A stretch of DNA of 44,854 nucleotides from an uncultured Clostridia bacterium (GTDB taxonomy: Bacteria; Bacillota; Clostridia; Oscillospirales; CAG-272). The number at the start of each line of letters is the position of its first letter. Position 1 is the stretch's first letter. Of the stretch, positions 9,522 through 38,735 are shown piece after piece. The stretch is taken from NCBI GenBank assembly GCA_946404035.1, contig CAMJCC010000004.1, positions 1-44,854 on the forward strand, written 5' to 3'. Below the pieces are notes generated by a model. It ran no database searches. It was not told the origin of the DNA and saw only the letters and a list, made by a program, of their open reading frames with translations. The position numbers and the translations under genes are program-made.

Positions 9522-9528
9522 ACCGTGT

Positions 9529-9704
9529 AACAAGATAGAGGCGCGCCGCACCAAGAGTAACCGCGGGTCGATCGACCGACGAGGGTTTTGCCGCGGGAAA
9601 GGGGTAGGCGCCGAAGTGTCCGGTGGCTCGTTTCCCCGGATGGCTGGTCGTACGGATAAGATCCGTCCGACTGTCGCGTTTTTCCGCGGAGTGCTATCGG
9701 TGTT
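9529..9704 (+). promoter_or_regulatory. Lysine riboswitch aptamer (L box)
   Basis: AGAGGCGCG..CCAAGAGTAA, GGGAAAGGGGTAGGCGCCGAAG, GGCTGGTCGTACGGATAAGATCCGTCCGACTGTC core; P1 GATAG/CTATC; upstream of dap genes. Confidence 0.95.
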
Positions 9705-9801: not shown

Positions 9802-10692
9802 ATGAACAAGAAGACCGTTTTCCGCGGGATCGCCACCGCCCTCATCACGCCTTTTCGGGACGGGCAGGTCGACTACGACGCCTACGGAAAGTTCATCGAC
9901 TGGCAGATCGAGCAGGGCATCAACGCTCTGGTCGCCTGCGGCACGACCGGGGAGTCCTCGACTCTCTCGGACGAGGAGCATCGCAAGACCCTCGCCTACG
10001 CCGTCAAGCGCGTGGCGGGCAGAGTGCCGGTGATCGCCGGCACGGGCTCGAACGAGCTGGACTACGCGGTCGATCTGTCGAAATACGCCGTTTCGGTCGG
10101 CGCCGACGCGATCCTGGTCGTGACGCCCTACTACAACAAGGCGACCCAAAAGGGTCTGATCGGGATGTATACGGCGATCGCCGACGCGGCGGGCGTTCCG
10201 ACCATCCTCTACAACGTGCCGTCGCGCACCGGGGTCAACATCGAGCCGAAGACCTACGCCGCGCTCGCCGAGCACCCCGATATCGTCGCGTTCAAGGAGG
10301 CGAACGGCAACATCTCGAAGATCGTCGAGACCATGTCCTACGTCCGCGGGAAACTGGACCTGTACTCGGGCAACGACGACCAGATCGTCCCCCTGATGTC
10401 GATGGGCGGCATCGGCGCCATCTCGGTGCTGTCGAACATCCTGCCGCGCGAGACGGTCGCCATCTGCGACCGGTTCTTCGCGGGCGACGTCGCGGGAGCG
10501 GCGGAACTCCAATGCCACTATCACGCCCTGATCGACGCGCTGTTCTCGGAGATCAACCCGATCCCGGTCAAAGCCGCCGTTGCCGCGATGGGCTTCTGTG
10601 AAAACTCGCTCCGTCTTCCCCTGACCGAACTGGAGGACGGACACAAAGAGACCCTCCTTGCTCTGATGAGAAAGGAAGGGCTCGACGTATGA
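9802..10692 (+). CDS. dapA: 4-hydroxy-tetrahydrodipicolinate synthase
   Basis: GIATALITPF, CGTTGESSTL, YNVPSRTGVN. Confidence 0.97.
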   Translation: MNKKTVFRGIATALITPFRDGQVDYDAYGKFIDWQIEQGINALVACGTTGESSTLSDEEHRKTLAYAVKRVAGRVPVIAGTGSNELDYAVDLSKYAVSVGADAILVVTPYYNKATQKGLIGMYTAIADAAGVPTILYNVPSRTGVNIEPKTYAALAEHPDIVAFKEANGNISKIVETMSYVRGKLDLYSGNDDQIVPLMSMGGIGAISVLSNILPRETVAICDRFFAGDVAGAAELQCHYHALIDALFSEINPIPVKAAVAAMGFCENSLRLPLTELEDGHKETLLALMRKEGLDV

Positions 10693-11426
10693 CCCGGCTG
10701 ATCCTCTTCGGCGCCGCCGGACGGATGGGCAAAGAGGTGGACGCCGCCGCCGCGAAAACGGGTGACGTAAAGATCGTCGCGCGGGTCGACGCGTCGGGCG
10801 CCGACGGGTGCCTCTCCTCGCTTGCCGAGGTGACGTGTTCCGCCGACGTCATCGTCGATTTCTCGCATCACGCGGCGACCAAGACCCTGACCGACTACGC
10901 CGTCAAGAACGGTATCCCGCTGCTCGTCGCGACGACGGGACAGACCGAAGACGAACTCGCTATGATCCGGGGGGCGGCTGCGAAAATCCCCGTGTTTTTC
11001 GCAGCAAACTACTCGCTCGGGATCGCGGCGCTGATCCGCGCGGCAAAGGCGATCGTCGCCCTTTATCCCGACGCGGATATCGAGATCAGCGAAAAGCACC
11101 ACAACCGCAAACTCGACGCGCCGAGCGGCACCGCTCTCTCGATCGCGCGGGCGATCTCGTCGGTACGCGAGGGCGAAACGGCGTTCACGTTCGGGCGCGG
11201 GGGGCAGGTCAAACGGCAGAAGAACGAGATCGGCATCCACGCCGTGCGGATGGGCAACGTCGTCGGGGAGCACGAAGTGCTGATCGGGACCGATAACGAG
11301 ACCATCACCTTAAAGCACGAGGCGCACAGCCGCGCGCTGTTCGCGGACGGCGCGCTCGTCGCCGCGAAGTTCCTGGTTGCCCAAAAACCCGGACTTTACT
11401 CGATGACCGACCTGGTAGGTGGATGA
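10689..11426 (+). CDS. dapB: 4-hydroxy-tetrahydrodipicolinate reductase
   Basis: MTRLILFGAAGRMGKEV, EKHHNRKLDAPSGTAL; ATGA overlap with dapA. Confidence 0.97.
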   Translation: MTRLILFGAAGRMGKEVDAAAAKTGDVKIVARVDASGADGCLSSLAEVTCSADVIVDFSHHAATKTLTDYAVKNGIPLLVATTGQTEDELAMIRGAAAKIPVFFAANYSLGIAALIRAAKAIVALYPDADIEISEKHHNRKLDAPSGTALSIARAISSVREGETAFTFGRGGQVKRQKNEIGIHAVRMGNVVGEHEVLIGTDNETITLKHEAHSRALFADGALVAAKFLVAQKPGLYSMTDLVGG

Positions 11427-11427
11427 G

Positions 11428-12276
11428 ATGAAACAAACGCTTCATTTTACCAAAATGCACGGGGCGGGCAACGACTACATTTACTTTGATTGCCGCGAAA
11501 AGGAGTTGGACGACCCCGCGGGGGTCGCCGTCGCCCTCTCGCCGCGGCACCACGCGGTCGGCGCGGACGGGATCGTTTTGATCTGTAAGTCAGACGTCGC
11601 CGACGCGAAGATGCGGATGTTCAACGCCGACGGGAGCGAGGGCAAGATGTGCGGCAACGCCATCCGCTGCGTGGCGCGCTACCTCTCCGAGCGGATCGGC
11701 GGTTTCCCTGACGAGTTGACGATCGAGACCCTCTCCGGGATCAAGCAACTGACGGTCAACCGCACGCCGGACGGCGCGTTTGCGTCGGTCTCGGTCGAGA
11801 TGGGTCGCGCAATCCTCGAGGGGCGGCACATCCCGGTGGACGCCGACGGGCTGATCCGGGACTATCCCCTTACGGTCGGGCGAAAAGCGTGGGATATTAC
11901 CGCCGTTTCGATGGGAAACCCCCACGCCGTGACCTTCGTTTCGGATACCTCGCGGCTGGATCTTGAAAAAATCGGACCGCAGTTTGAGAACCATCCCTTC
12001 TTCCCCGACCGGGTCAACACCGAGTTCGTGAAAGCGATCTCGGAGGACGAACTGGAGATGCGGGTCTGGGAGAGAGGAAGCGGCGAGACCTTTGCCTGCG
12101 GGACCGGGGCGTGCGCCTCGGTGGTCGCCGCCTGCATCACCGGCCGCTGCCGTTTTGATACCCCGGTGACGGTACATCTTCGCGGCGGGGATCTTGTGAT
12201 CGAGTGCCGCTCCGACCTCACGGTCAAGATGACCGGGGGCGCGGAATTCGTTTTTGACGGGACCTGTACTTTTTGA
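11428..12276 (+). CDS. dapF: Diaminopimelate epimerase
   Basis: FTKMHGAGNDYIYFD, MCGNAIRCVARY, ETFACGTGACAS. Confidence 0.97.
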   Translation: MKQTLHFTKMHGAGNDYIYFDCREKELDDPAGVAVALSPRHHAVGADGIVLICKSDVADAKMRMFNADGSEGKMCGNAIRCVARYLSERIGGFPDELTIETLSGIKQLTVNRTPDGAFASVSVEMGRAILEGRHIPVDADGLIRDYPLTVGRKAWDITAVSMGNPHAVTFVSDTSRLDLEKIGPQFENHPFFPDRVNTEFVKAISEDELEMRVWERGSGETFACGTGACASVVAACITGRCRFDTPVTVHLRGGDLVIECRSDLTVKMTGGAEFVFDGTCTF

Positions 12277-12325
12277 CGTTTCCCATCTCATAGAAAGGCG
12301 ATCCAGACGGGATCGGACCGAAACA

Positions 12326-13495
12326 ATGAAACTGCAACTGAACGACAATTTTGCGCGCATCAAGCCGTCCTACCTGTTTTCGGACGTGGCGAAACGCGTG
12401 CGCGCCTACTCGGAGGCGCACCCCGACAAGAAGATCCTTCGGCTCGGGATCGGGGACGTGACGCTCCCCCTGACGCCGACGGTGATCCGGGCGATGCACA
12501 AGGCGACCGACGAGATGGCAAACGCCGCGACCTTCCGCGGCTACGCGCCGGAATACGGCTACGACTTTCTGCGCGAGGCGATCGCGCGGCACTACGAGCA
12601 GCTCGGCATTTCGGTCGACGCGGGCGACGTGTTCGTGTCCGACGGCGCGAAGAGCGACCTCGGCAACTTCGTCGACCTGTTCGCTGACGTCCCGGTCCTG
12701 GTCCCCGACCCGGTCTACCCGGTCTACGTGGACTCCAATTTGATGGCGGGGCGGGAGATCGAGTACATCGAGGGCAACGAAGCAAACGGTTTTCTTCCGT
12801 CGCCCGCGGGGCTGTCTGACGTGCCCCGGCTGATCTATATCTGTTCCCCGAACAACCCGACCGGCGCGGTCTACTCGAAAAGGGGGCTGACCGAATGGGT
12901 GGAGTTCGCACTTCGCACCGGGTCCCTGATCCTGTACGACGCGGCGTACGAGGCGTTCATCGCGGACGGCTCGCCCTGCAGCATCTACGCCATCAAGGGC
13001 GCGGTCAAGTGCGCCGTCGAGTTCTGCTCGCTCTCGAAGACCGCGGGCTTTACCGGGACGCGCTGCGGCTGGACGGTGGTCCCCGCCGCGCTCGGCGCCG
13101 TCAAACCCATGTGGGAAAGACGGCAGGCGACCAAGTTCAACGGCGTGCCCTACGTCGTACAGCGTGCCGCCGAAGCCGCCCTCTCCTGGGAGGGGACGAA
13201 AGAATGTATGGAAAATATCGCGTACTATAAGGAGAACGCCGCACGGATCGCGGATCTGCTCACCCGGAAAGGTATTCCCTTTACCGGCGGGACCGCGTCG
13301 CCCTACCTGTGGCTGAAGTGCCCCGGCGGGATGGGCTCGTGGGAGTTCTTCGACAAACTGCTAAACGAAGCGCAGGTGGTGGGCACCCCCGGCGCCGGGT
13401 TCGGACGCGCGGGCGAGGGATATTTCCGCCTGACGGCGTTCGGATCACGCGCAGCGACGAGAGAGGCGGTGGAACGGCTTGACAAACTGCTCTGA
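12326..13495 (+). CDS. dapL: LL-diaminopimelate aminotransferase
   Basis: PLP fold-type I: LRLGIGDVTLPL, YICSPNNPTGAVYSK, SLSKTAGFTGTRCGW; operon context. Confidence 0.95.
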   Translation: MKLQLNDNFARIKPSYLFSDVAKRVRAYSEAHPDKKILRLGIGDVTLPLTPTVIRAMHKATDEMANAATFRGYAPEYGYDFLREAIARHYEQLGISVDAGDVFVSDGAKSDLGNFVDLFADVPVLVPDPVYPVYVDSNLMAGREIEYIEGNEANGFLPSPAGLSDVPRLIYICSPNNPTGAVYSKRGLTEWVEFALRTGSLILYDAAYEAFIADGSPCSIYAIKGAVKCAVEFCSLSKTAGFTGTRCGWTVVPAALGAVKPMWERRQATKFNGVPYVVQRAAEAALSWEGTKECMENIAYYKENAARIADLLTRKGIPFTGGTASPYLWLKCPGGMGSWEFFDKLLNEAQVVGTPGAGFGRAGEGYFRLTAFGSRAATREAVERLDKLL

Positions 13496-14798
13496 AAAAA
13501 CCATTCTCCACGACAACGTGACGGTGGGGGAAAACGGGACGCTCCGGTTCGCCGGGGTCGATACCGCCGCGCTCGCCGACAAGTACGGCACGCCCCTGTA
13601 CTTAATGGACGCGGACCTGATCCGCACGCGCTGCCGCCTGTATCAAAGCGAGATGAAAGCCGCGTTCGGCGGCGCGTCCCGTCCGCTGTTCGCGGGCAAG
13701 GCGTTCTGCACGAAGGCGATCTATCGGATCATGGCGGAGTGCGGGATGTCGGTCGATCTGGTGTCGCCGGGTGAGCTTTATACGGCGAAAGCGGCGGGGT
13801 TTCCGATGGAACGCGCCTTTTTCCACGGGAACAACAAGACCGACGCCGATATTTCGCTCGCGCTGGACAGCGGGGTCGGTTGCTTCGTCTGCGACAGCCG
13901 CGAGGAACTTCTCGCGCTGGATAAGATCGCGGGGGAGCGCGCCGTGCGCCAGCCCGTTTTGCTCCGCGTGACGCCGGGGATCGACCCGCACACCTTCGCC
14001 GCCGTGACGACCGGAAAGGTGGACTCGAAGTTCGGGTCCCCGATCGCGACCGGGGCGGCGCTGGAACTCGCGGAACTGGCGCTTTCGCTCTCCCACGTCG
14101 AACTCACCGGTTTCCATTGCCACATCGGGTCGCAGATCTTTGACGTGCAGCCCTACGTCGACGCCGCCGACGTCATGTTCGGCTTTATCAAGAGCGTCAA
14201 GGACGCGACCGGGTTCGTCGCCGGGACGCTCAACCTCGGGGGCGGGTTCGGGGTGCGCTACACCGAGAGCGATCCCGCGTTCGATTACGCCGCCGCGATC
14301 AGGTCTCTTGCCGACGCGGTGAAAGCCGCCGCAAAAAAGCACGGTCTGCCGATGCCGACCGTGTTGCTTGAACCGGGACGGAGCATCGTCGCCGACGCGG
14401 GGATGACCCTCTACACCGTGGGAACGGTCAAGGAGATCCCGGGCTTCCGCACCTACGTGTCGGTCGACGGCGGGATGCCGGACAACCCGCGCTACGCGCT
14501 CTACCGCTCGGTCTATACCGTCGTGAACGCCACCCACGCAGACAGGGCGCCCGACCGCGCCGTGACCGTCGCGGGGCGGTGCTGCGAGAGCGGGGACCTG
14601 ATCGCGGAGGGCGCGCGCGTCGCCACTCCCGTGCGCGGGGATCTTCTGGCAGTTCTCGTCACCGGGGCGTATAACTACTCGATGGCGTCGAACTATAATC
14701 GTATCCCCCGCCCCCCGGTCGTCTTTCTCTCGAACGGAAAAGACGAACTCGCGGTGCGGCGTGAGAGCTACGAAGATCTGGTCAGAAACGATCTGTAA
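13479..14798 (+). CDS. lysA: Diaminopimelate decarboxylase
   Basis: KYGTPLYLMDADLIR, HCHIGSQI, EPGRSIVADAG, CCESGD; TTG start overlapping dapL. Confidence 0.96.
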   Translation: MTNCSEKTILHDNVTVGENGTLRFAGVDTAALADKYGTPLYLMDADLIRTRCRLYQSEMKAAFGGASRPLFAGKAFCTKAIYRIMAECGMSVDLVSPGELYTAKAAGFPMERAFFHGNNKTDADISLALDSGVGCFVCDSREELLALDKIAGERAVRQPVLLRVTPGIDPHTFAAVTTGKVDSKFGSPIATGAALELAELALSLSHVELTGFHCHIGSQIFDVQPYVDAADVMFGFIKSVKDATGFVAGTLNLGGGFGVRYTESDPAFDYAAAIRSLADAVKAAAKKHGLPMPTVLLEPGRSIVADAGMTLYTVGTVKEIPGFRTYVSVDGGMPDNPRYALYRSVYTVVNATHADRAPDRAVTVAGRCCESGDLIAEGARVATPVRGDLLAVLVTGAYNYSMASNYNRIPRPPVVFLSNGKDELAVRRESYEDLVRNDL

Positions 14799-15058
14799 GG
14801 GGTACGTCCACTTTCTTGAAAGAAAGTGGAGCAAAGAACTTCAACAAGAGAATAATAAAGCGAAACGGCGAGCGCGGCTCGCCGTTTCGCGGTTTCAAAA
14901 ACGGGACGGACAGGACGCCGACCCCTGCAACGAAACATAAACACAGCCCGTGCCGTTTCCGGCACGGGCTGTTCATCACTTTTGCCGCCCGAACGGGCGG
15001 CAAAATCATAACTGCTCCAAAAGAGCATCATCACGTTGCGCCGTGGCGCAACTCATAA
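14799..15058. repeat. Intergenic mosaic hairpin element, copy A
   Basis: Begins GGGGTACGTCCACTTTCTTGAAAGAAAGTGGAGCAAAGAACTTCAA, ends CACGTTGCGCCGTGGCGCAACTCATAA; both ends shared with copy B. Confidence 0.85.
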
Positions 15059-30224: not shown

Positions 30225-30521
30225 TTAACAATTACGGTGCTTTTTCTTCTGTTCGCGGGGCGGCGGAAGCGGCAGACAGCCGTCCGCGTCGACCAGAACG
30301 ACGTCCTCGCCGATCTTTTTGATCCGGCACCAGGGGATCAGGGTCTGCTCCCGTTTGCCGAACCCGAGAAATCCGGCGTCCCCCGACACGACAAGACCCG
30401 TGATCCTGCCCTCGCAGGGGTCGAATTCGAGCGCGGTGACGCATCCGATGCGTTTGCCGTCCCCGACGTCGATCACGTCCTTTTCTTCCAGGCGTTCGGT
30501 ATTCATCAACTCCACGGTCAT
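30225..30521 (-). CDS. YlmC/YmxH family PRC-barrel sporulation protein
   Basis: EKDVIDVGDGKRIGCVTALEFDPCEGRITGLVV, TLIPWCRIKKIGEDVVLVD; ATGA overlap with the upstream gene supports this start. Confidence 0.85.
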   Translation of the reverse strand: MTVELMNTERLEEKDVIDVGDGKRIGCVTALEFDPCEGRITGLVVSGDAGFLGFGKREQTLIPWCRIKKIGEDVVLVDADGCLPLPPPREQKKKHRNC

Positions 30522-31471
30522 TCCTCCGTTTGATCGGCGTCGGTCCCCTCCGTCCGGGGTGCGCGCCGTTCGGCGTAGAGCGGGGCGCGGAAGAGCAGCG
30601 GGCGGATCTCGTGCCACGTCGGGATAAACGACGACGCGGGCAGCGGGTTGGTCCCCGCTCCGCATTCGACGGTGAACGAGGGGATCCCGAGGCGTCCGAC
30701 CGCCCAGTCGGTGAGCCCCCCGTACGCCGCCGCACCGGTCGGGACGGCGGCGCGGTAGCCGGTCATGGCGGCGAAGCGCGCGGCGACGGTCGTCTGACCC
30801 GGGAGCGAGCGACCGCCGGAGGTGAAGTAGATCTCGCGCCCCTGGGTGTGGAGCGAGAGGATCAGGGAGAGCGGGACCGAACGGATGAAACGGGTGAGCG
30901 CCGCGGTCTCGGGTTCGGACCCGGGGTATTCCCCGCTGTACCTGGAGGGGGAGCCGCCGAGGATGCCGAGGGAGGCTTCTACCCCTTTATAGGCGCGAAA
31001 CCCCATGTCGTAGTTGTGGTTGAGGTCGACCCCCCTGGCGTTTGCCTGCCAGGTGGAGCAGTCCTCCCGACCTCCGTTCATCCGGGCGATCCGGTCGGAC
31101 AGGAACCCCGCGGAGGCAAGACCGCGGAGCGACAGTTCGACCCCGTCGGGGTTGAGAGCGGGGACGATCCAGAGGGTGCGGACCGAGAGCAAAAACGTGA
31201 GGTCGACCCCCTCGACCGACTGCCCGGCGCGGTGGGCGGAGAGGAGTTCGGAAAGGAAGCGGAGCAGCAGCCCCGCGGTCATGCCCTCCGCGCCGTGGTG
31301 CGCGCCGACGTAGAGCAGATGCACGTCCCCCTCGCCGAGGCGGAGAAGCGGGATCTCGCGACCGAGCACCGAGCGGCCGAGCAGGGAGCGGGACAGGATC
31401 GGGTAGTCGCGCTCCAGTTCGGATATGACGGCGGCGCGCTCGGCAGCGTCGGGACAGGGCGGTATTTTCAT
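30518..31471 (-). CDS. M14 family zinc carboxypeptidase
   Basis: VGAHHGAEGMTAG (HxxE), LSLHTQG (third zinc ligand), TVECGAG catalytic Glu. Confidence 0.88.
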   Translation of the reverse strand: MKIPPCPDAAERAAVISELERDYPILSRSLLGRSVLGREIPLLRLGEGDVHLLYVGAHHGAEGMTAGLLLRFLSELLSAHRAGQSVEGVDLTFLLSVRTLWIVPALNPDGVELSLRGLASAGFLSDRIARMNGGREDCSTWQANARGVDLNHNYDMGFRAYKGVEASLGILGGSPSRYSGEYPGSEPETAALTRFIRSVPLSLILSLHTQGREIYFTSGGRSLPGQTTVAARFAAMTGYRAAVPTGAAAYGGLTDWAVGRLGIPSFTVECGAGTNPLPASSFIPTWHEIRPLLFRAPLYAERRAPRTEGTDADQTEE

Positions 31472-31535: not shown

Positions 31536-31791
31536 GGGGTACGTCCACTTTCTTAAAAGAAAGTGGAGCAAAGAACTTCAATAAAAGATTATTGAAGAGC
31601 AAAACGGCGTTCCCCTACGGACTAACGCCGTTTTGCGGTTCTGTAGCCGGAACTGCAAAAGACCTCCTTGCCGTCGGAAAAACAAAACGTTGACCGCGCC
31701 GTTTGGCGCGGTCAACCCATAACGATTGCCGAGGGGCGCGCCCCTCGGCAATCTCAAAGTTCTACACGTTGCGCCGCAGCGCAACTCATAA
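31536..31791. repeat. Intergenic mosaic hairpin element, copy B
   Basis: Begins GGGGTACGTCCACTTTCTTAAAAGAAAGTGGAGCAAAGAACTTCAA, ends CACGTTGCGCCGCAGCGCAACTCATAA. Confidence 0.85.
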
Positions 31792-31796
31792 TTCCG

Positions 31797-32660
31797 TTAT
31801 GCTTTTCCGACCGAGCCGAACAGCTCCATCTTCTCCTTGACGGTCGCCTTGATCGCCTCGACGCCGGGAGCCAGGAGTTTGCGCGGATCGAAGCCCTTGC
31901 CCTCCAGGTCCTTGCCCGCCTCGATGTACTTGCGGACGGCGGCGGCAAAGGTGAGCTGGCACTCGGTGTTGACGTTGATCTTCGCAACGCCGAGCGAGAT
32001 GGCGCGGCGGATCATATCGGCGGGGATACCCGTCCCGCCGTGGAGGACCAACGGCATCTTCCCGGTCTTCTCCTGCACGGCGGCAAGGGTCTCGAACGAA
32101 AGTCCCTTCCAGTTGGCGGGGTATTTGCCGTGGATGTTGCCGATCCCGGCGGCGAGCATCGTCACGCCGAGATCCGCGATCTTCTTGCACTCATCGGGGT
32201 CGGCGCACTCGCCCATCCCGATCACGCCGTCCTCTTCGCCGCCGATGGCGCCGACCTCCGCCTCAAGGGACATTCCCTTTTCGCGGCAGATGCGGACCAG
32301 TTCGGAGGTCTTTTCGACGTTCTCGTCGATCGGATAGTGCGAACCGTCGAACATAATGGAGGAAAAGCCGGCGTCGATGCACTTGAAGCATCCCTCGTAG
32401 GTCCCGTGGTCAAGATGGAGCGCGACCGGAACGGTGATATTGAGTTCCCGGATCATCGACTTGACCATCGCGGCAACCGTCGGGAAACCGCACATGTACT
32501 TGCCCGCTCCCTCGGAAACGCCGAGGATGACGGGAGACTTGAGTTCCTCCGCCGTCAGAAGGATCGCCTTCGTCCATTCGAGATTGTTGATGTTGAACTG
32601 ACCGACGGCGTACTTGCCCGCCACCGCCTTTTCAAGCATTTCTTTTGCCGAAACCAGCAT
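31797..32660 (-). CDS. fba: Class II fructose-bisphosphate aldolase
   Basis: VGQFNINNLEWTKAIL, ALHLDHGTYEGCFKCIDAGFSSIMFDGSHYP, LVLHGGTGIP. Confidence 0.95.
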   Translation of the reverse strand: MLVSAKEMLEKAVAGKYAVGQFNINNLEWTKAILLTAEELKSPVILGVSEGAGKYMCGFPTVAAMVKSMIRELNITVPVALHLDHGTYEGCFKCIDAGFSSIMFDGSHYPIDENVEKTSELVRICREKGMSLEAEVGAIGGEEDGVIGMGECADPDECKKIADLGVTMLAAGIGNIHGKYPANWKGLSFETLAAVQEKTGKMPLVLHGGTGIPADMIRRAISLGVAKINVNTECQLTFAAAVRKYIEAGKDLEGKGFDPRKLLAPGVEAIKATVKEKMELFGSVGKA

Positions 32661-32701
32661 TTGTGTTTCCTCCCTGCGAAATGATGTTTTTATCACTTAT
32701 T

Positions 32702-32912: not shown

Positions 32913-35900
32913 TTGGATACGATCGCGACCATATCGGCGCTGTTTTCCCCGGTGATGAATTTCGCTCTTCAGCAGAGCGGGATCCCCGTGATCCGGGAGA
33001 TCAGGATCAAGAATATGACCGGCAGGGCACTGACCGGTCTGACCGTGTCGGTCACGAGCGACCCCGCGATCTTCCGCTCCGCCACTTTCCCCGTGGAGGA
33101 GGTAAGCCCGCGCACCGATTACGAGATCCTTTCGCCCGAACTCCAGATGTACGCCTCCACCCTCATCACCCTGACCGCCTCGCAGGACACCGTGGTCCGC
33201 GTGTCGCTGCTCCTGGACGGGGAGACCGTCTCCGAGACCGAGCAGACCGTCCGGCTGCTTGCCTACGACGAATGGGCGGGCGCGAAACTCTTTCCCGAAA
33301 CGACCGGCGCGTACGTGCAGCCGGGGCACCCCTACCTTGCCGACCTGATGAAAGACGCCCAATCGAACCTGAAGCGCGTCGCGCGCGAGAGTTCGTTCCC
33401 GGGCTATAAGAAAAAGGAGACCTCCTCGGTCTTAAAACAGCTGGAAGCCGTTTTCCTTGCCCTGCAGGACGAGAAGTTCCGGGTCAAGGAAACGACCGGC
33501 GGCTACGAGGAGCCGGGGCAGAAGATCCGGCTGCCCGAGACGCTGAAAGTGAAACGCGAATGCGCCACGCTCGACCTGGCGCTGCTGTTCGCCGCGTGCC
33601 TGGAAGCGGCGGACTTAAACCCCATCGTGGTCTTTGAAAAGCGCACCTGCTACGTCGGCGTGTGGCTGATCGACACGTTCTTCTCGGAGAGCATCCAGGA
33701 CGACGCGACGCAGCTGACCAAACGGACGGCGGAGGGCATCGAGGAACTTGCTTTCGTGTCGCTCTCGGGCTTCTCGGAAAAGACCGAGTTCAAGACCGCG
33801 GTCGCGGCGGCGAACGCCCGGCTCGCGGACGAGGACCGCTTCTGGTTCGCTCTCGATATCCGGCGCGTGCGCGCGGGCGGGATCCTGCCCATGCCGCTCC
33901 GTCGGCTGGACGCCAAGGGCAACCCCCTCTTCGATTTCGTTCCCTCGACGGCGAAGCGGACGGGCGACGCCGCCGAAGATACCGCGGGCGCCAAGCGTCC
34001 GGCAAAGCGGGCGGGCGCGTCCGAGATGACCCGCGAACAGCTCTGGCAGAGAAAACTGCTGGATCTGTCGCTGCGAAACTCGCTGCTCAACTTCTCGTTC
34101 TACCGCACGTCGATCCAACTGCTCGTGGGGCAGAGCGAGGAACTCTTCGACCCCCTGACGCGCGACGACGCCGAATACGCCGTGCTCGGGCGCCCGAAAG
34201 AGCCCGAGATCCCCGTCGGGGACGGCAAGGGGCTGATCAACCTGCGCCACGCCGCCGATCCCATCAAGAATTTCCTGCGCTCGGAGTTCCGGCAGAAACG
34301 GGTCCATACGACAAACGACCCGGAGGAGCTGCCGACGACCCTGAACAACCTGTTCCGCACGGCGAAGACCGGGTTGGAGGAAAGCGGCGCCAACACGCTC
34401 TACCTCGCGTTCGGTTTTTTGCGCTGGTACGAGACCGACGCGTCGCAGAAACCGCACTACGCGCCCCTGGTCCTCTTGCCGGTCGAGCTGGTCCGCGCCT
34501 CGGTCCGCAAGGACTTTTTGCTCCGGGCGCGTGAAGACGAGCCGCGCTTCAACATCACCCTGCTCGAAATGCTCCGCAACAACTACGGCGTGACCATACC
34601 CGACGTCGATCCCCTGCCCCAGAACGAAAACGGCGACCGCAGTCTGCGCGACGTGTTCTCGGCGGTGCGGAACGCGGTGATGAAGATGTCGCGTTGGGAC
34701 GTTTCGGAGGCGGTGATCCTCTCCAACTTCTCGTTCTCCAATTTCATCATGTACAACGATCTGCGCCGTCGGAGCGCGGATCTGAAAACCAACAAGGTCG
34801 TTTCCTCCCTGCTCTCGGGGCGGGTGAACTGGCGGGATACCAACGACTTCCTGCTCCCCGAACAGCTGGACGAAACGGTCGATCCCGTCGACGTGGCGGC
34901 GCCCCTTCCCGCCGACGCCTCGCAGCTCTCCGCCGTCATCGCGGCGGGCGAGGGCAAGAGCTTCGTTCTGCACGGCCCCCCGGGCACCGGGAAATCCCAG
35001 ACCATCACGAATATGATCACCAACGCCCTGTATCACGGGAAGTCTGTCCTTTTCATCGCGGAAAAGATGGCGGCTCTCTCGGTGGTGCAGAAGCGTCTGG
35101 AAGCCATCGGCATCGCGCCGTTCTGTCTGGAACTGCACTCGAACAAGGCAAAGAAAGCCGACGTTTTGGGGCAGCTTGACCGCACCCTGCAATCGGCGAA
35201 GATCAAGACCCCGGAGGAGTTCACCGCCGAGGCGGAACGTCTGCGCCGGATGCGCGCGCAACTGAACGACACGGTCAGCGCCATCGGGCGGATCCGTACC
35301 TTCGGCTTTTCGCTCTACGACGCGATCGTCCGCTTCGAGCAGTATAAGGACGCGCCGGATCTGAAGATCTTTACGAGCGAGGCGGTGGCGGCGCTCACGA
35401 GCGAAGCACCGCGCAAGCACGAAGCGATCATCGGAAAACTGCGGGTCGCCTCCGACGCTGTGGGCGGCGTGCACAAGAACCCCTTTTCGATCTATCAGCG
35501 GCGCGACTACTCGCTCCAACTGAAACAGCGGTTCGCGGAGGCGCTGGATATCCTTGCCGAGAGCGGGACCGACCTGCAAAAGAACCTGGTCGCCCTCGCC
35601 CGGCTGATCCCGTTCCGCAACCTGCACACCTATCAGCAGATCAAGTCCATTTCGGAACTCTGCCGTATTCTGGCGGAGGTCAATCTGCTGCCCGCGGGGC
35701 TGACCACCAACAAGAACCTGCCGCTCAACCGCGAGCGCATCCTGGATATCTGCCGCGCGGGTCAGGCGCGCGACGATCTGCACGCCGCGCTGCTCTCGCG
35801 TTTCTCGGAGGGCATCCTGAACTTTGACGCGGCGACCAACCTCCAGCGCATCAAGCAGGCGCAGTCCAGAAGCCCGATCACCGGGTTCTTCCGCCGCCGC

Positions 35901-38735
35901 TCGATCTGCCGCCGGCTCGCCACGTTCGGAAAGACGGCGAAGCCCTGCCGCACCCGCGAAACGGTCAAGATCTTAAACGATATCTTAAAGTATCAGGAGT
36001 CCGCCCGCACGGTGCGCGAAAGCAACCTCTGCGAGGTGCTCTTCGGGGAGGTCTGGGATCGCGGACGGTGCGATTTCCGGATGCTGGAACGGGTGTTTTT
36101 GCAGGCGGTGGACATCATCCGGCTGTGCGGCGAGATCTGCACCAATCCCGAGAACCGCTCGCTTGTGCTGGTCAAGATCGGCGCCCTGACCGAAGAGGGG
36201 ATGTTCGCCGACCGTACCGCGCTGTTCCGCGCGGTGTCGCAGTCGTTCAACCGGTTCATCGACGCGGAGGACGCCCTGGCGGATCTCTGCCAGAACGACG
36301 CCGCCCGCTGGCGCGCGCAGCCCGGCTGGATGATCAACCAAAAGAAACTTGCCGAGACCTGCCTTGCCAAGATCGACACGCTCCGCGACTGGAACGGGTA
36401 TCTCGGCGTGCGCGAGGAGGCGGAGAAAGCCGGGCTCGGCGCGCTCTGCCAGGCGCTGGAGCGCGGGAATATCGAAAGCGATCAACTGATCCCGGCGTAC
36501 CGCCGCAACCTCGCCTACTCCTGCGCCGCCTACGTCATCGACAACGAAGAAGCGCTCTCGGAGTTCAACGGAGCGCTGGTCGAGGAGAAGATCCGGCAGT
36601 TCGCCCGGATCACCGCCAACTTTGAGAACCTGACCAAACAGGAACTTGCCGCGATGCTCTCCTCGAAGATCCCGAACGCGATGGACGACGCCTCGGCGTC
36701 CTCGGAGATCTCGATCCTGCAGCGCGCGATCCGTTCGGGCGGGCGCGGGACCGCGATCCGCAAATTGTTCGACAGCATCCCCAACCTGCTTCGCTGCCTG
36801 TGTCCGTGTATGCTGATGTCCCCGATCTCGGTGGCGCAGTATATCGACCCCGCGTTCCCGAAATTCGACCTCGTGATCTTCGACGAGGCGTCCCAGATGC
36901 CGACCTGCGAGGCGGTGGGCGCCATCGCGCGCGGCAACGACCTGATCGTCGTCGGCGACCCCAAACAGCTCCCGCCGACCAGTTTCTTTATGACCGTGCG
37001 CAACGACGAGGACAATATCGAACGGGAAGACCTGGAAAGCATCCTCGACGACTGTCTGGCGCTCGGGATGCCCGAGGAGCACCTCCGGTGGCACTACCGG
37101 TCGCGGCACGAGAGCTTGATCGCGTTCAGCAACCGGCAGTACTACGAAAACAAACTCTACACCTTCCCCTCTCCGAACGACCGGGTCAGCCGGGTCAGCC
37201 ACGTCAAGGTGGACGGCTTCTACGACAGGGGAAAGACCAAACAGAACCGCGCGGAGGCGCAGGCGGTGGTCGCGGAGATCGTCCGCCGGCTGAAAAAACC
37301 CGAACTCGCCAAGCAGAGCATCGGCGTCGTGACCTTCTCGTCGGTACAGCAGCTCCTGATCGAAGACCTGCTGGAAGCCGAGTTCCGAAAGAACTCCAAA
37401 CTGGAGGAAGCGGCGCTCGGGATGTACGAGCCCATCTTCATCAAGAACCTGGAAAACGTGCAGGGGGACGAACGCGACGTCATCATGTTCTCGATCTGCT
37501 ACGGTCCCGACAAGAACGGGCAGGTCGCGATGAACTTCGGTCCCCTGAACCGCGAGGGCGGCTGGCGGCGGCTGAACGTGGCGACCTCCCGCGCGCGGCG
37601 CGAGATGATCGTCTTCTCCACCCTGCTCCCCGAACAGATCGACCTGAACCGGACGACGGCGGAGGGCGTGATCGGTCTTCGCTCTTTCCTCTCGTTTGCG
37701 ATGTCGGGCAAGAGCACCCTGCCGACCCGTCCCGGCGACAGGGCGAACAGCGATGGCATCGCCGAAAACGTGGCGGCGGCGCTCCGGCAGCTCGGATACG
37801 AGGTCGATACGCACGTCGGATGCTCGGAATACAAGATCGATATCGCCATCCGCGACCCGCTCCGGGAGGGAGAATACCTGCTCGGTATCCTCTGCGACGG
37901 GGAGAACGCGGGGCAGGAAACGGCGCACGACCGTCTGATCCTGCAGGATCAGATCCTCGCCTCACTCGGGTGGAAGATCCACCGGCTGTGGCTGCTTGAC
38001 TGGTGGGACGCACCGGCAAAGGAACTGGAAAAGATCCGCAACCTCGCCGAAGAGGCGAAACTGCGCCCGATCCTCTACGATACCCCGACCCCCTCCGCGC
38101 CCGCGCCCGCCGTGTTCGAAACGGTGGCGAGAGCCGAAAAGAAGCGGGAGAGCGACGTGTTCCCGGTCTATCCCATCACGCAGTTCGAGGATATGGACGA
38201 AACGATGGCGGGCGCCGATCTCTTCTGCGACGTCATCAACAAGACCCGGATCGTCATGCAGATGGATAAGATCCTGCACGTCGAGGGTCCGATCAGCCGG
38301 ACGCTTTTGGTCAAGCGGCTGCTGACCGCGTGGGGCATCCCGCGCACCAGCCCGAAGATCGAACGCTCGATCGACGAGAAGCTCCGCTTCATCGACCACA
38401 AGACCACCCAGACGGCAAGCAATCATTTCTACTGGCTGTCCGACCCCGAGACCACGCCGCTCTCGCCGCGTATCCCCGACCCCGCGGATCCCGAGAACAC
38501 GCGCCGTGATTTCAACAACATCCCGACCGAGGAGATCGCCGCCGCCGTGCGGTCGGTCGTCACCAAGCAGTACAGTCTGACGACCGAGGACCTCTACAAA
38601 GAGGTGTCGCGTATCTTCGGGTACTCCCGGATGGCGCAGTCGAACGTCCCGTTTTTGGCGGAGGGCGTCACCTACGCCACCTCGCACGGCTGGGTCGCCG
38701 AACTGAACGGACGCATCTTCATCAAGTTGAAGTGA
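32913..38735 (+). CDS. DUF4011 domain-containing SF1 helicase with Vsr/PD-(D/E)XK-like and DUF3320-like C-terminal regions (1940 aa)
   Basis: GPPGTGKSQT Walker A (34974-34997), FDEASQM (around 36882), VVGDPKQLPP, NVATSRAR; C-terminal KIDIAIRDP..LGILCDGEN and helical DUF3320-like tail; TTG start after AGGAGG. Confidence 0.88.
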   Translation: MDTIATISALFSPVMNFALQQSGIPVIREIRIKNMTGRALTGLTVSVTSDPAIFRSATFPVEEVSPRTDYEILSPELQMYASTLITLTASQDTVVRVSLLLDGETVSETEQTVRLLAYDEWAGAKLFPETTGAYVQPGHPYLADLMKDAQSNLKRVARESSFPGYKKKETSSVLKQLEAVFLALQDEKFRVKETTGGYEEPGQKIRLPETLKVKRECATLDLALLFAACLEAADLNPIVVFEKRTCYVGVWLIDTFFSESIQDDATQLTKRTAEGIEELAFVSLSGFSEKTEFKTAVAAANARLADEDRFWFALDIRRVRAGGILPMPLRRLDAKGNPLFDFVPSTAKRTGDAAEDTAGAKRPAKRAGASEMTREQLWQRKLLDLSLRNSLLNFSFYRTSIQLLVGQSEELFDPLTRDDAEYAVLGRPKEPEIPVGDGKGLINLRHAADPIKNFLRSEFRQKRVHTTNDPEELPTTLNNLFRTAKTGLEESGANTLYLAFGFLRWYETDASQKPHYAPLVLLPVELVRASVRKDFLLRAREDEPRFNITLLEMLRNNYGVTIPDVDPLPQNENGDRSLRDVFSAVRNAVMKMSRWDVSEAVILSNFSFSNFIMYNDLRRRSADLKTNKVVSSLLSGRVNWRDTNDFLLPEQLDETVDPVDVAAPLPADASQLSAVIAAGEGKSFVLHGPPGTGKSQTITNMITNALYHGKSVLFIAEKMAALSVVQKRLEAIGIAPFCLELHSNKAKKADVLGQLDRTLQSAKIKTPEEFTAEAERLRRMRAQLNDTVSAIGRIRTFGFSLYDAIVRFEQYKDAPDLKIFTSEAVAALTSEAPRKHEAIIGKLRVASDAVGGVHKNPFSIYQRRDYSLQLKQRFAEALDILAESGTDLQKNLVALARLIPFRNLHTYQQIKSISELCRILAEVNLLPAGLTTNKNLPLNRERILDICRAGQARDDLHAALLSRFSEGILNFDAATNLQRIKQAQSRSPITGFFRRRSICRRLATFGKTAKPCRTRETVKILNDILKYQESARTVRESNLCEVLFGEVWDRGRCDFRMLERVFLQAVDIIRLCGEICTNPENRSLVLVKIGALTEEGMFADRTALFRAVSQSFNRFIDAEDALADLCQNDAARWRAQPGWMINQKKLAETCLAKIDTLRDWNGYLGVREEAEKAGLGALCQALERGNIESDQLIPAYRRNLAYSCAAYVIDNEEALSEFNGALVEEKIRQFARITANFENLTKQELAAMLSSKIPNAMDDASASSEISILQRAIRSGGRGTAIRKLFDSIPNLLRCLCPCMLMSPISVAQYIDPAFPKFDLVIFDEASQMPTCEAVGAIARGNDLIVVGDPKQLPPTSFFMTVRNDEDNIEREDLESILDDCLALGMPEEHLRWHYRSRHESLIAFSNRQYYENKLYTFPSPNDRVSRVSHVKVDGFYDRGKTKQNRAEAQAVVAEIVRRLKKPELAKQSIGVVTFSSVQQLLIEDLLEAEFRKNSKLEEAALGMYEPIFIKNLENVQGDERDVIMFSICYGPDKNGQVAMNFGPLNREGGWRRLNVATSRARREMIVFSTLLPEQIDLNRTTAEGVIGLRSFLSFAMSGKSTLPTRPGDRANSDGIAENVAAALRQLGYEVDTHVGCSEYKIDIAIRDPLREGEYLLGILCDGENAGQETAHDRLILQDQILASLGWKIHRLWLLDWWDAPAKELEKIRNLAEEAKLRPILYDTPTPSAPAPAVFETVARAEKKRESDVFPVYPITQFEDMDETMAGADLFCDVINKTRIVMQMDKILHVEGPISRTLLVKRLLTAWGIPRTSPKIERSIDEKLRFIDHKTTQTASNHFYWLSDPETTPLSPRIPDPADPENTRRDFNNIPTEEIAAAVRSVVTKQYSLTTEDLYKEVSRIFGYSRMAQSNVPFLAEGVTYATSHGWVAELNGRIFIKLK

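Follow-up and report, generated by a model that had tools for sequence, protein, structure and literature searches.

The BOX elements of Streptococcus pneumoniae are composed of a boxA module, a repeated boxB module and a boxC module (PMC3049150). Croucher et al. found BOX, RUP, SPRITE and IS elements to be enriched between convergent genes, a distribution that was read as tolerance (PMC3049150). Another set of Firmicute intergenic repeats, bcr1 to bcr18 of the Bacillus cereus group, includes some MITE-like members and some members with a conserved secondary structure, and about half of the bcr copies were observed inside mRNAs, UTRs included (PMC3446304, PMC3733652). REP sequences, in turn, are palindromes of 20-40 bp with a GTAG or CGTC tag at their foot (PMC3733652). 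Here, two palindrome-rich intergenic elements, copy A and copy B, are compared with these systems. Both are located in the window, that is, the whole stretch of 44,854 nucleotides of an uncultured Clostridia bacterium (assembly GCA_946404035.1, contig CAMJCC010000004.1) that was analyzed.

Copies A and B in the Window

The first-pass annotation of this DNA had proposed two elements with conserved left and right caps, enclosing hairpins whose stems differ between the copies. Both caps match letter for letter in copy A (14799-15058) and copy B (31536-31791), and all the hairpin arms listed for the two copies are perfect inverted repeats. Copy A represents the entire intergenic region between a PLP-dependent decarboxylase gene and a convergent xylose-isomerase-like gene, since its left end abuts the TAA stop codon of the former and its right end overlaps the stop codon of the latter. 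Copy B is found beside the gene of a class II fructose-bisphosphate aldolase (FBA). The parts of both copies are listed below; G021, G024 and G074 designate other genomes carrying the elements, G024 being a sister species.

14799..15058 (+): copy A, filling the entire space that separates two convergent genes
14799..14806 (+): copy A purine-rich outer edge GGGGTACG, its first base directly after the stop TAA (14796-14798)
14807..14906 (+): copy A core (hairpin 1, GCAAAGAACTTC, hairpin 2/hairpin 3 region and GGTTY motif); covariance model match of 88.7 bits
14807..14830 (+): copy A hairpin 1, TCCACTTTCTT-GA-AAGAAAGTGGA; the outer 4 bp covary among copies
14831..14842 (+): copy A near-invariant motif GCAAAGAACTTC
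14860..14890 (+): copy A hairpin 3, GCGAAACGGCGAGC / GCTCGCCGTTTCGC
14891..14903 (+): copy A GGTTTCAAAAACG motif (in other copies the alternative form GGTTCTATAGCCG); the GGTTY within it complements GAAC of the invariant motif
14943..14972 (+): copy A array hairpin ACAGCCCGTGCCG / CGGCACGGGCTGT; one fully compensated pair in the G021 ortholog
14980..15005 (+): copy A array hairpin TTTTGCCGCCCG / CGGGCGGCAAAA; the orthologous site of G021 has the same hairpin
15014..15026 (+): copy A small array hairpin GCTC / GAGC
15035..15052 (+): copy A last array hairpin GTTGCGCCGTGGCGCAAC (the proposed right cap), followed by the spacer CTCATAA, within which the convergent gene has its stop
31536..31791 (+): copy B, flanked by the FBA gene (31797-32696, -), on its 3′ side, and by an M14 peptidase gene (30518-31471, -), on its 5′ side
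31544..31652 (+): copy B core; covariance model match of 87.6 bits
31599..31636 (+): copy B hairpin 3, GCAAAACGGCGTT / AACGCCGTTTTGC
31689..31716 (-): copy B array hairpin GTTGACCGCGCC / GGCGCGGTCAAC, with GTTTTGTTTTT next on the - strand
31724..31753 (+): copy B array hairpin GATTGCCGAGGGGCG / CGCCCCTCGGCAATC; the G074 ortholog has its apical half replaced
31768..31785 (+): copy B last array hairpin GTTGCGCCGCAGCGCAAC

Being followed by GTTTTGTTTTT on the minus strand, the copy B hairpin at 31689..31716 could plausibly terminate transcription of the FBA gene. When the window was searched with a covariance model of the core, A and B were recovered with E values of 4.8e-18 and 8.2e-18, respectively, which is a consistency check only, as the A and B cores or their close kin are among the 40 training sequences. 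Elsewhere in the window, a lysine riboswitch (Rfam RF00168, 85.5 bits; 9528-9704, +) precedes the run of genes at 9802-14798, among whose products are an aminotransferase and the decarboxylase encoded next to copy A. The region 32913-38735 (+) encodes a protein of 1940 amino acids in which DUF4011, AAA_11/AAA_12 helicase parts, an MTES_1575 nuclease domain and DUF3320 were recognized; it may be a helicase-nuclease of the defence type.

Copy Number and Anatomy of the Family

Two elements had been counted at first; the genome carries about 20-25 copies. The 24-mer AAAGAAAGTGGAGCAAAGAACTTC, searched with up to three mismatches, has 12 matches in the window's genome versus none for the reversed control, a recurrence far beyond chance, and AAAGNNNNGCAAAGAACTT, with one mismatch, has 23 versus one for the control; in addition, a DNA search with copy A returns a long list of partial matches distributed over contigs of the same genome. 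The first ~100 nt are the sole part that most other copies have in common with A. In other words, the family-wide unit is this left portion, termed the core, and not a ~260-bp unit with two fixed caps, while the right cap, taken for a shared end, is simply the hairpin that closes a variable array and is absent from most copies.

The conserved core of ~100 nt consists of hairpin 1, GCAAAGAACTTC, two further hairpins and the GGTTY motif, and interchangeable hairpins are found behind it. The outer edge of the element is purine-rich, typically GAGGGGNACG, and the bases before hairpin 1 differ among copies (CGTCC, CGCGC, GAGGC, CTCGA). Hairpin 1 has the general form NNNNCTTTCTT-GN-AAGAAAGNNNN and is followed by GCAAAGAACTTC, inside which hairpin 2 starts. 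Hairpin 3 has an L form, GCAAAACGGCG..CGCCGTTTTGC with GGTTCTATAGCCG after it, and an R form, with the loop CTCGTNNCTCG and GGTTTCAAAAACG after it; mixtures of the two exist. A helix between GAAC and GGTTY would plausibly close hairpins 2 and 3, as suggested by their complementarity, a pairing without covariation support because both partners are nearly invariant. At two sites (C8 and C55), hairpin 1 has a nested form in G024 and a plain form in the window's genome. The nested hairpin in the hairpin 1 apex (about GGTGGCGYCGCCCGCAAYCCACGGGCGGGCGCGGTAAGG) was encountered at L318:14856-15389, L344:1-324, L047 and L054.

In the array, hairpins are divided by short constant spacers, namely CTCATAAC in A and B and ATATCGC in G024. 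A constant ATATCGC/GCGATAT spacer between differing perfect hairpins was observed at L358:6937-7058, L326:647-759, L362:1170-1267 and L340:1753-1848; the stems of such arrays (e.g., GAGAGCCGACCGT..ACGGTCGGCTCTC) reappear at different sites, some of them away from any core. Moreover, repeated units with GGGGTTCCCCGAAACGCACGAAGTAAGTTTTGGGGGTTCCCGG are arranged in tandem within several G024 elements (L358:7080-7330, L352:10900-11200).

The claim that terminal inverted repeats are absent holds for A and B themselves, but fails at the level of the family. Several copies have a second, inverted core ~250-350 bp off, and a core, or at least a cap, is present at both ends and faces inwards in C11 (3889/4173), C29 (4511/4831) and C1 (17087); two-ended copies span 130-370 bp. 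The family is modular, in that conserved end modules surround a variable number of internal modules, and it is intergenic and multi-copy.

Pairing and Position Are Kept While Stem Letters Change

The proposal that pairing is retained despite changing stem sequences was upheld by shuffles, by slid controls and by the orthologous sites of sister species. Stem covariation is strong. Using 40 cores and an explicit structure, 106 double-changed cells with pairing kept were counted, versus 31 in shuffles (0/500 reaching 106) and 5-27 when the structure was slid. In hairpin 1, Watson-Crick pairs account for 172/184 cells of the four outer positions, with two wobbles, the maximum over 1000 reshufflings of the right arm being 132. 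For hairpin 3, 567 pairs are Watson-Crick, three are wobble and five are other. Its wobble share is 0.5%, compared with 3.5% in G024 terminator hairpins under nearly the same rule (Fisher p 1e-5). Since the copies are related by descent, the covariation figures describe a pattern rather than independent trials, and the p-values for loops and covariation are likewise not independent.

Through the flanking genes, which are 77-88% identical, 15 syntenic sites were found in G024, of which 1.71 Mb of about 1.9 Mb were covered. The core is present at 12 of these sites, two of which have another end surviving, and absent at three, where the intergenic regions differ throughout and no junction is readable. 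Among these 15 sites, the window's clade yielded neither a clean empty site nor a target duplication. When each core was compared with the 27 cores of G024, its ortholog ranked 14, 10, 27, 23, 3, 5, 8, 12 and 19 in the nine pairs, no better than a random core. Similar turnover is visible at the sites of A and B. The G021 ortholog of A retains the two large hairpins at the end, where one pair is compensated, and in the G074 ortholog of B GTTGACC/GGTCAAC has become GCAGACC/GGTCTGC, while the apical half of another hairpin has been swapped. More distant members of the genus have mostly ordinary terminators at these two sites. These comparisons indicate that the place is inherited and that motif and pairing are retained, while stem letters turn over. 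A recent copying burst in the clade was not seen, as the best matches among copies are 0.6-0.9 and do not differ within and between genomes. Likewise, recent mobility is not supported in the window's clade, where positions are mostly inherited.

Location and Strand of the Cores

According to gene predictions trained on G024, 41/47 copies have the outer side of their core turned to a gene 3′ end, mostly 6-30 nt past the stop codon (about 16 nt). This location after a stop codon, and not in a 5′ UTR, does not fit a riboswitch or 5′ leader. G024 regions with a core are convergent in 12 cases, tandem in 11 and divergent in none, versus 133, 417 and 165, respectively, for regions without a core; hence, in the window's clade, cores avoid divergent promoters. 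Two copies, B and C64, are turned towards the promoter side of a gene. In tandem regions of G024, 10 of 12 cores lie on the gene strand. The loops also have a polarity. Specifically, hairpin 1 has a UGNA loop in 35 standard clade copies and the inverse in none, and hairpin 3 has UNCG tetraloops in 13 cases and inverted ones in none; the ratio of UNCG to its inverse in G024 terminators is six to two. Strand-specific loops, together with sense placement, speak for an action as RNA on the sense strand. That wobble pairs are so few and that second ends are inverted points to a DNA-level component too.

A GC-rich hairpin with a T run directly behind it is found downstream within the element for 15/49 cores. 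In the presence of canonical terminators, no clear difference emerged between core-bearing and core-less genes (4/14 for sense cores in convergent regions versus 109/220 without core), so that cores as replacements of terminators are not borne out by this comparison. No shared theme was found among the core-bearing genes, and the mixed housekeeping functions of the flanking genes rule out a regulon.

Distribution in Clostridia and Searches for Known Families

The spread of the family is patchy. Among 69 genomes of the genus, seven have 12-35 matches and all others have at most three, near the control level; across 399 genomes of the phylum, the exact motif is present in one. Structure-model matches occur in 17/295 genomes of the order, these counts being lower bounds. 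Besides the window's own genome, five genomes of the order (G539, G593, G603, G648 and G677), belonging to other genera and families, have 8-13 such matches each, with E values of about 1e-6 to 0.01. At least 117 stretches of named genomes contain the exact 22-bp pattern; nearly all are from Clostridia, including Oscillospiraceae, Gemmiger, Pseudoflavonifractor, Neglecta, Ruthenibacterium and rumen MAGs. The 80 contigs listed out of these represent 38 named assemblies. Outside the clade, the loci of named genomes often consist merely of two inverted ends 60-200 bp apart, positioned 0-1 nt past a stop or 14-25 nt ahead of a start. Orientation bias is lacking there (78 ends face 3′ ends and 52 face 5′ ends), so a role at 3′ ends is at best clade-specific.

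In RGIG1810, the hairpin 1 cap is part of a dispersed repeat of ~221-241 bp, with ends GTAAAYGATGATTAACTA. Its ends are inverted over 18 bp and its copies, about 30 in number, are nearly identical; 3.9 Mb contain 57 end matches. Loci of this type are the following.

L130:2453-2700: RGIG1810-type dispersed repeat
L148, L173, L180 and L189: RGIG1810-type dispersed repeat

Paired ends in RGIG1810 are ~210-230 bp apart, with no spacing suggesting a full-length partner, and end pairs in the other loci examined are mostly within about 370 bp. In one Oscillospiraceae MAG, L164:1400-1710 carries four tandem end modules of 76 bp, a local amplification of half an element.

At gathering score, the only Rfam match in the window is the lysine riboswitch, and the related loci have none. 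A permissive Rfam search of copy A came nowhere near the cut-off. In the Rfam searches as a whole, the only sub-threshold matches, to microRNAs and leaders, are chance-like, and a known RNA family was discarded. Regarding a possible mover, a search of end spacings in the loci and in RGIG1810, which was not exhaustive, gave no transposase that shares these ends and could be the partner of the family, and no IS200-type transposase match was found. PF01797 (Y1_Tnp) is absent from G000, G021, G024 and G047, four of the five carrier genomes tested, and present in G074 and in element-poor genomes. A REP/RAYT system is ruled out by the lack of the Y1 transposase in these four carriers and by hairpin feet that bear no invariable GTAG or CGTC tag. 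A plasmid or phage element was dismissed as well, with no match to either; 18 exact-motif matches occur in viral contigs, only four or five of them with a hairpin before the motif. Finally, the open literature searched on palindromic repeats in these taxa contains nothing matching, and the consensus strings are absent from the full texts searched.

Origin and Possible Function of the Elements

The first-pass suggestion of a non-autonomous mobile element or a structured RNA/DNA family pointed in the right direction, a multi-copy family being supported; the check for further copies and for conserved hairpin order and pairing left it standing. The reading that we prefer, with about even confidence, is that A and B belong to an undescribed palindrome-rich, non-coding repeat family, BOX/bcr-like and non-autonomous, now fixed and kept as a 3′-end hairpin module. 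The ancestral element would have carried an end module (hairpin 1 plus GCAAAGAACTT) inverted at both ends around a cargo of interchangeable hairpins, and this module would have been enlarged to the ~100-nt core in the window's clade. Its non-autonomous spread may have depended on an enzyme recognizing the inverted hairpin ends, whereas copies in the clade would now stay put and be kept as 3′-end modules. As the cores lie a few nucleotides past stop codons and on the strand of the gene, they should be transcribed in the 3′ UTR and fold there. Selection would hold motif, loops and pairing and leave the stem letters free for a quick turnover, probably aided by hairpin-templated copying during replication, which would change both arms together, as the replaced stems suggest. 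In the weakest step of this proposal, the folded 3′ end might stall 3′-to-5′ exonucleases or help to end transcription. More tentatively, the core could represent a new class of 3′-UTR RNA module, dispersed by a mobile element and then used genome-wide, with structure, loops and the 12-nt motif selected at fixed sites and stems swapped whole by hairpin-templated copying; we consider this possible, but would not favor it.

A purely parasitic, MITE-like repeat has a limited though real probability. Its 3′ position would reflect tolerance of insertions downstream of genes, as was concluded from the convergent-gene enrichment of BOX, RUP, SPRITE and IS elements (PMC3049150), and its retention at orthologous sites would reflect slow loss. 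The relative in RGIG1810 is indeed a real dispersed repeat with inverted ends, the core-bearing genes have no theme and other lineages show no orientation bias. Nevertheless, orthologous cores hold motif and pairing even though their variable parts differ like random copies, which neutral relics should not do, and both the prevalence of the gene strand in the tandem pairs of G024 and the strand-specific loops argue against pure parasitism. The latter features, with covariation and inherited sites, would instead fit a functional structured RNA proper, that is, a 3′-UTR regulatory element without mobile origin, bound by a protein or a small RNA. We regard this as unlikely, as many copies exist in only seven of the 69 genus genomes, two-ended inverted and promoter-facing copies occur, Rfam has no match at gathering score, and the rarity of hairpin 3 wobbles relative to the terminators of the same genome is not typical of an RNA that is read from a single strand.

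Such rarity of wobbles, and the replacement of whole stems or apical halves at orthologous sites, could also arise by mutation alone, with template switching in replication copying arm onto arm in the absence of selection on structure. Template switching is known to generate multibase compensatory changes without G-U intermediates, and it can also invert the loop (PMC8794818). The hairpin 1 loop, however, is inverted in 0/35 standard clade copies, and GCAAAGAACTTC and GGTTY are kept though they lie outside the palindromes, which makes mutation as the sole cause improbable. Highly improbable, in our judgment, are bidirectional intrinsic terminators standing in place of ordinary ones. Plain terminators do follow the same genes in element-free relatives, the L-type hairpin 3 has the layout A4-GC-U4 and T-rich tracts follow some array hairpins; the core, on the other hand, is without a standard T run, the R-type hairpin 3 has no U tract, and genes followed by a core show no clear shortage of canonical terminators.

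If the reading of A and B as members of a fixed, formerly spreading repeat family is right, some of the commonest gut and rumen bacteria harbor an undescribed structured repeat family. The orthologous hairpins form an unusually clean set, differing in both arms but constant in place, motif and loop. With them, stepwise mutation plus selection and template switching can be tested, from sequence alone, as sources of double compensatory changes, and the elements, should the new 3′-UTR module prove real, would represent a natural test bed for the origin of perfect compensatory changes.

Comparison with Known Repeat Systems

Similarly to REP/BIME sequences, the family includes arrays of short intergenic palindromes, but its unit is ~100 nt long and has a multi-hairpin core. 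With MITEs it shares the lack of coding capacity and, in some copies, inverted ends, A and B holding only one end module; unlike in MITEs, the ends contain hairpins with free stem letters. BOX and bcr repeats are the nearest kinds in build and behavior. The bcr repeats belong to another host group and are likened here by their general description; the present family is marked by cores placed in sense directly behind stop codons and by stems replaced as a whole. BOX elements, like this family, are modular, non-coding and intergenic, occur in tens of copies, have conserved end modules around a variable middle, are predicted to form stem-loop RNA and are enriched between convergent genes, with little current movement and a mover proven for neither. 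At the sequence level, the comparison with BOX consists of the Rfam searches, which gave no match. In their build, they differ in that the middle of the present elements consists of different hairpins, where BOX repeats a single boxB module. Furthermore, an end module may be found, inverted, at either end of the present elements, and their stems change at sites that are conserved.
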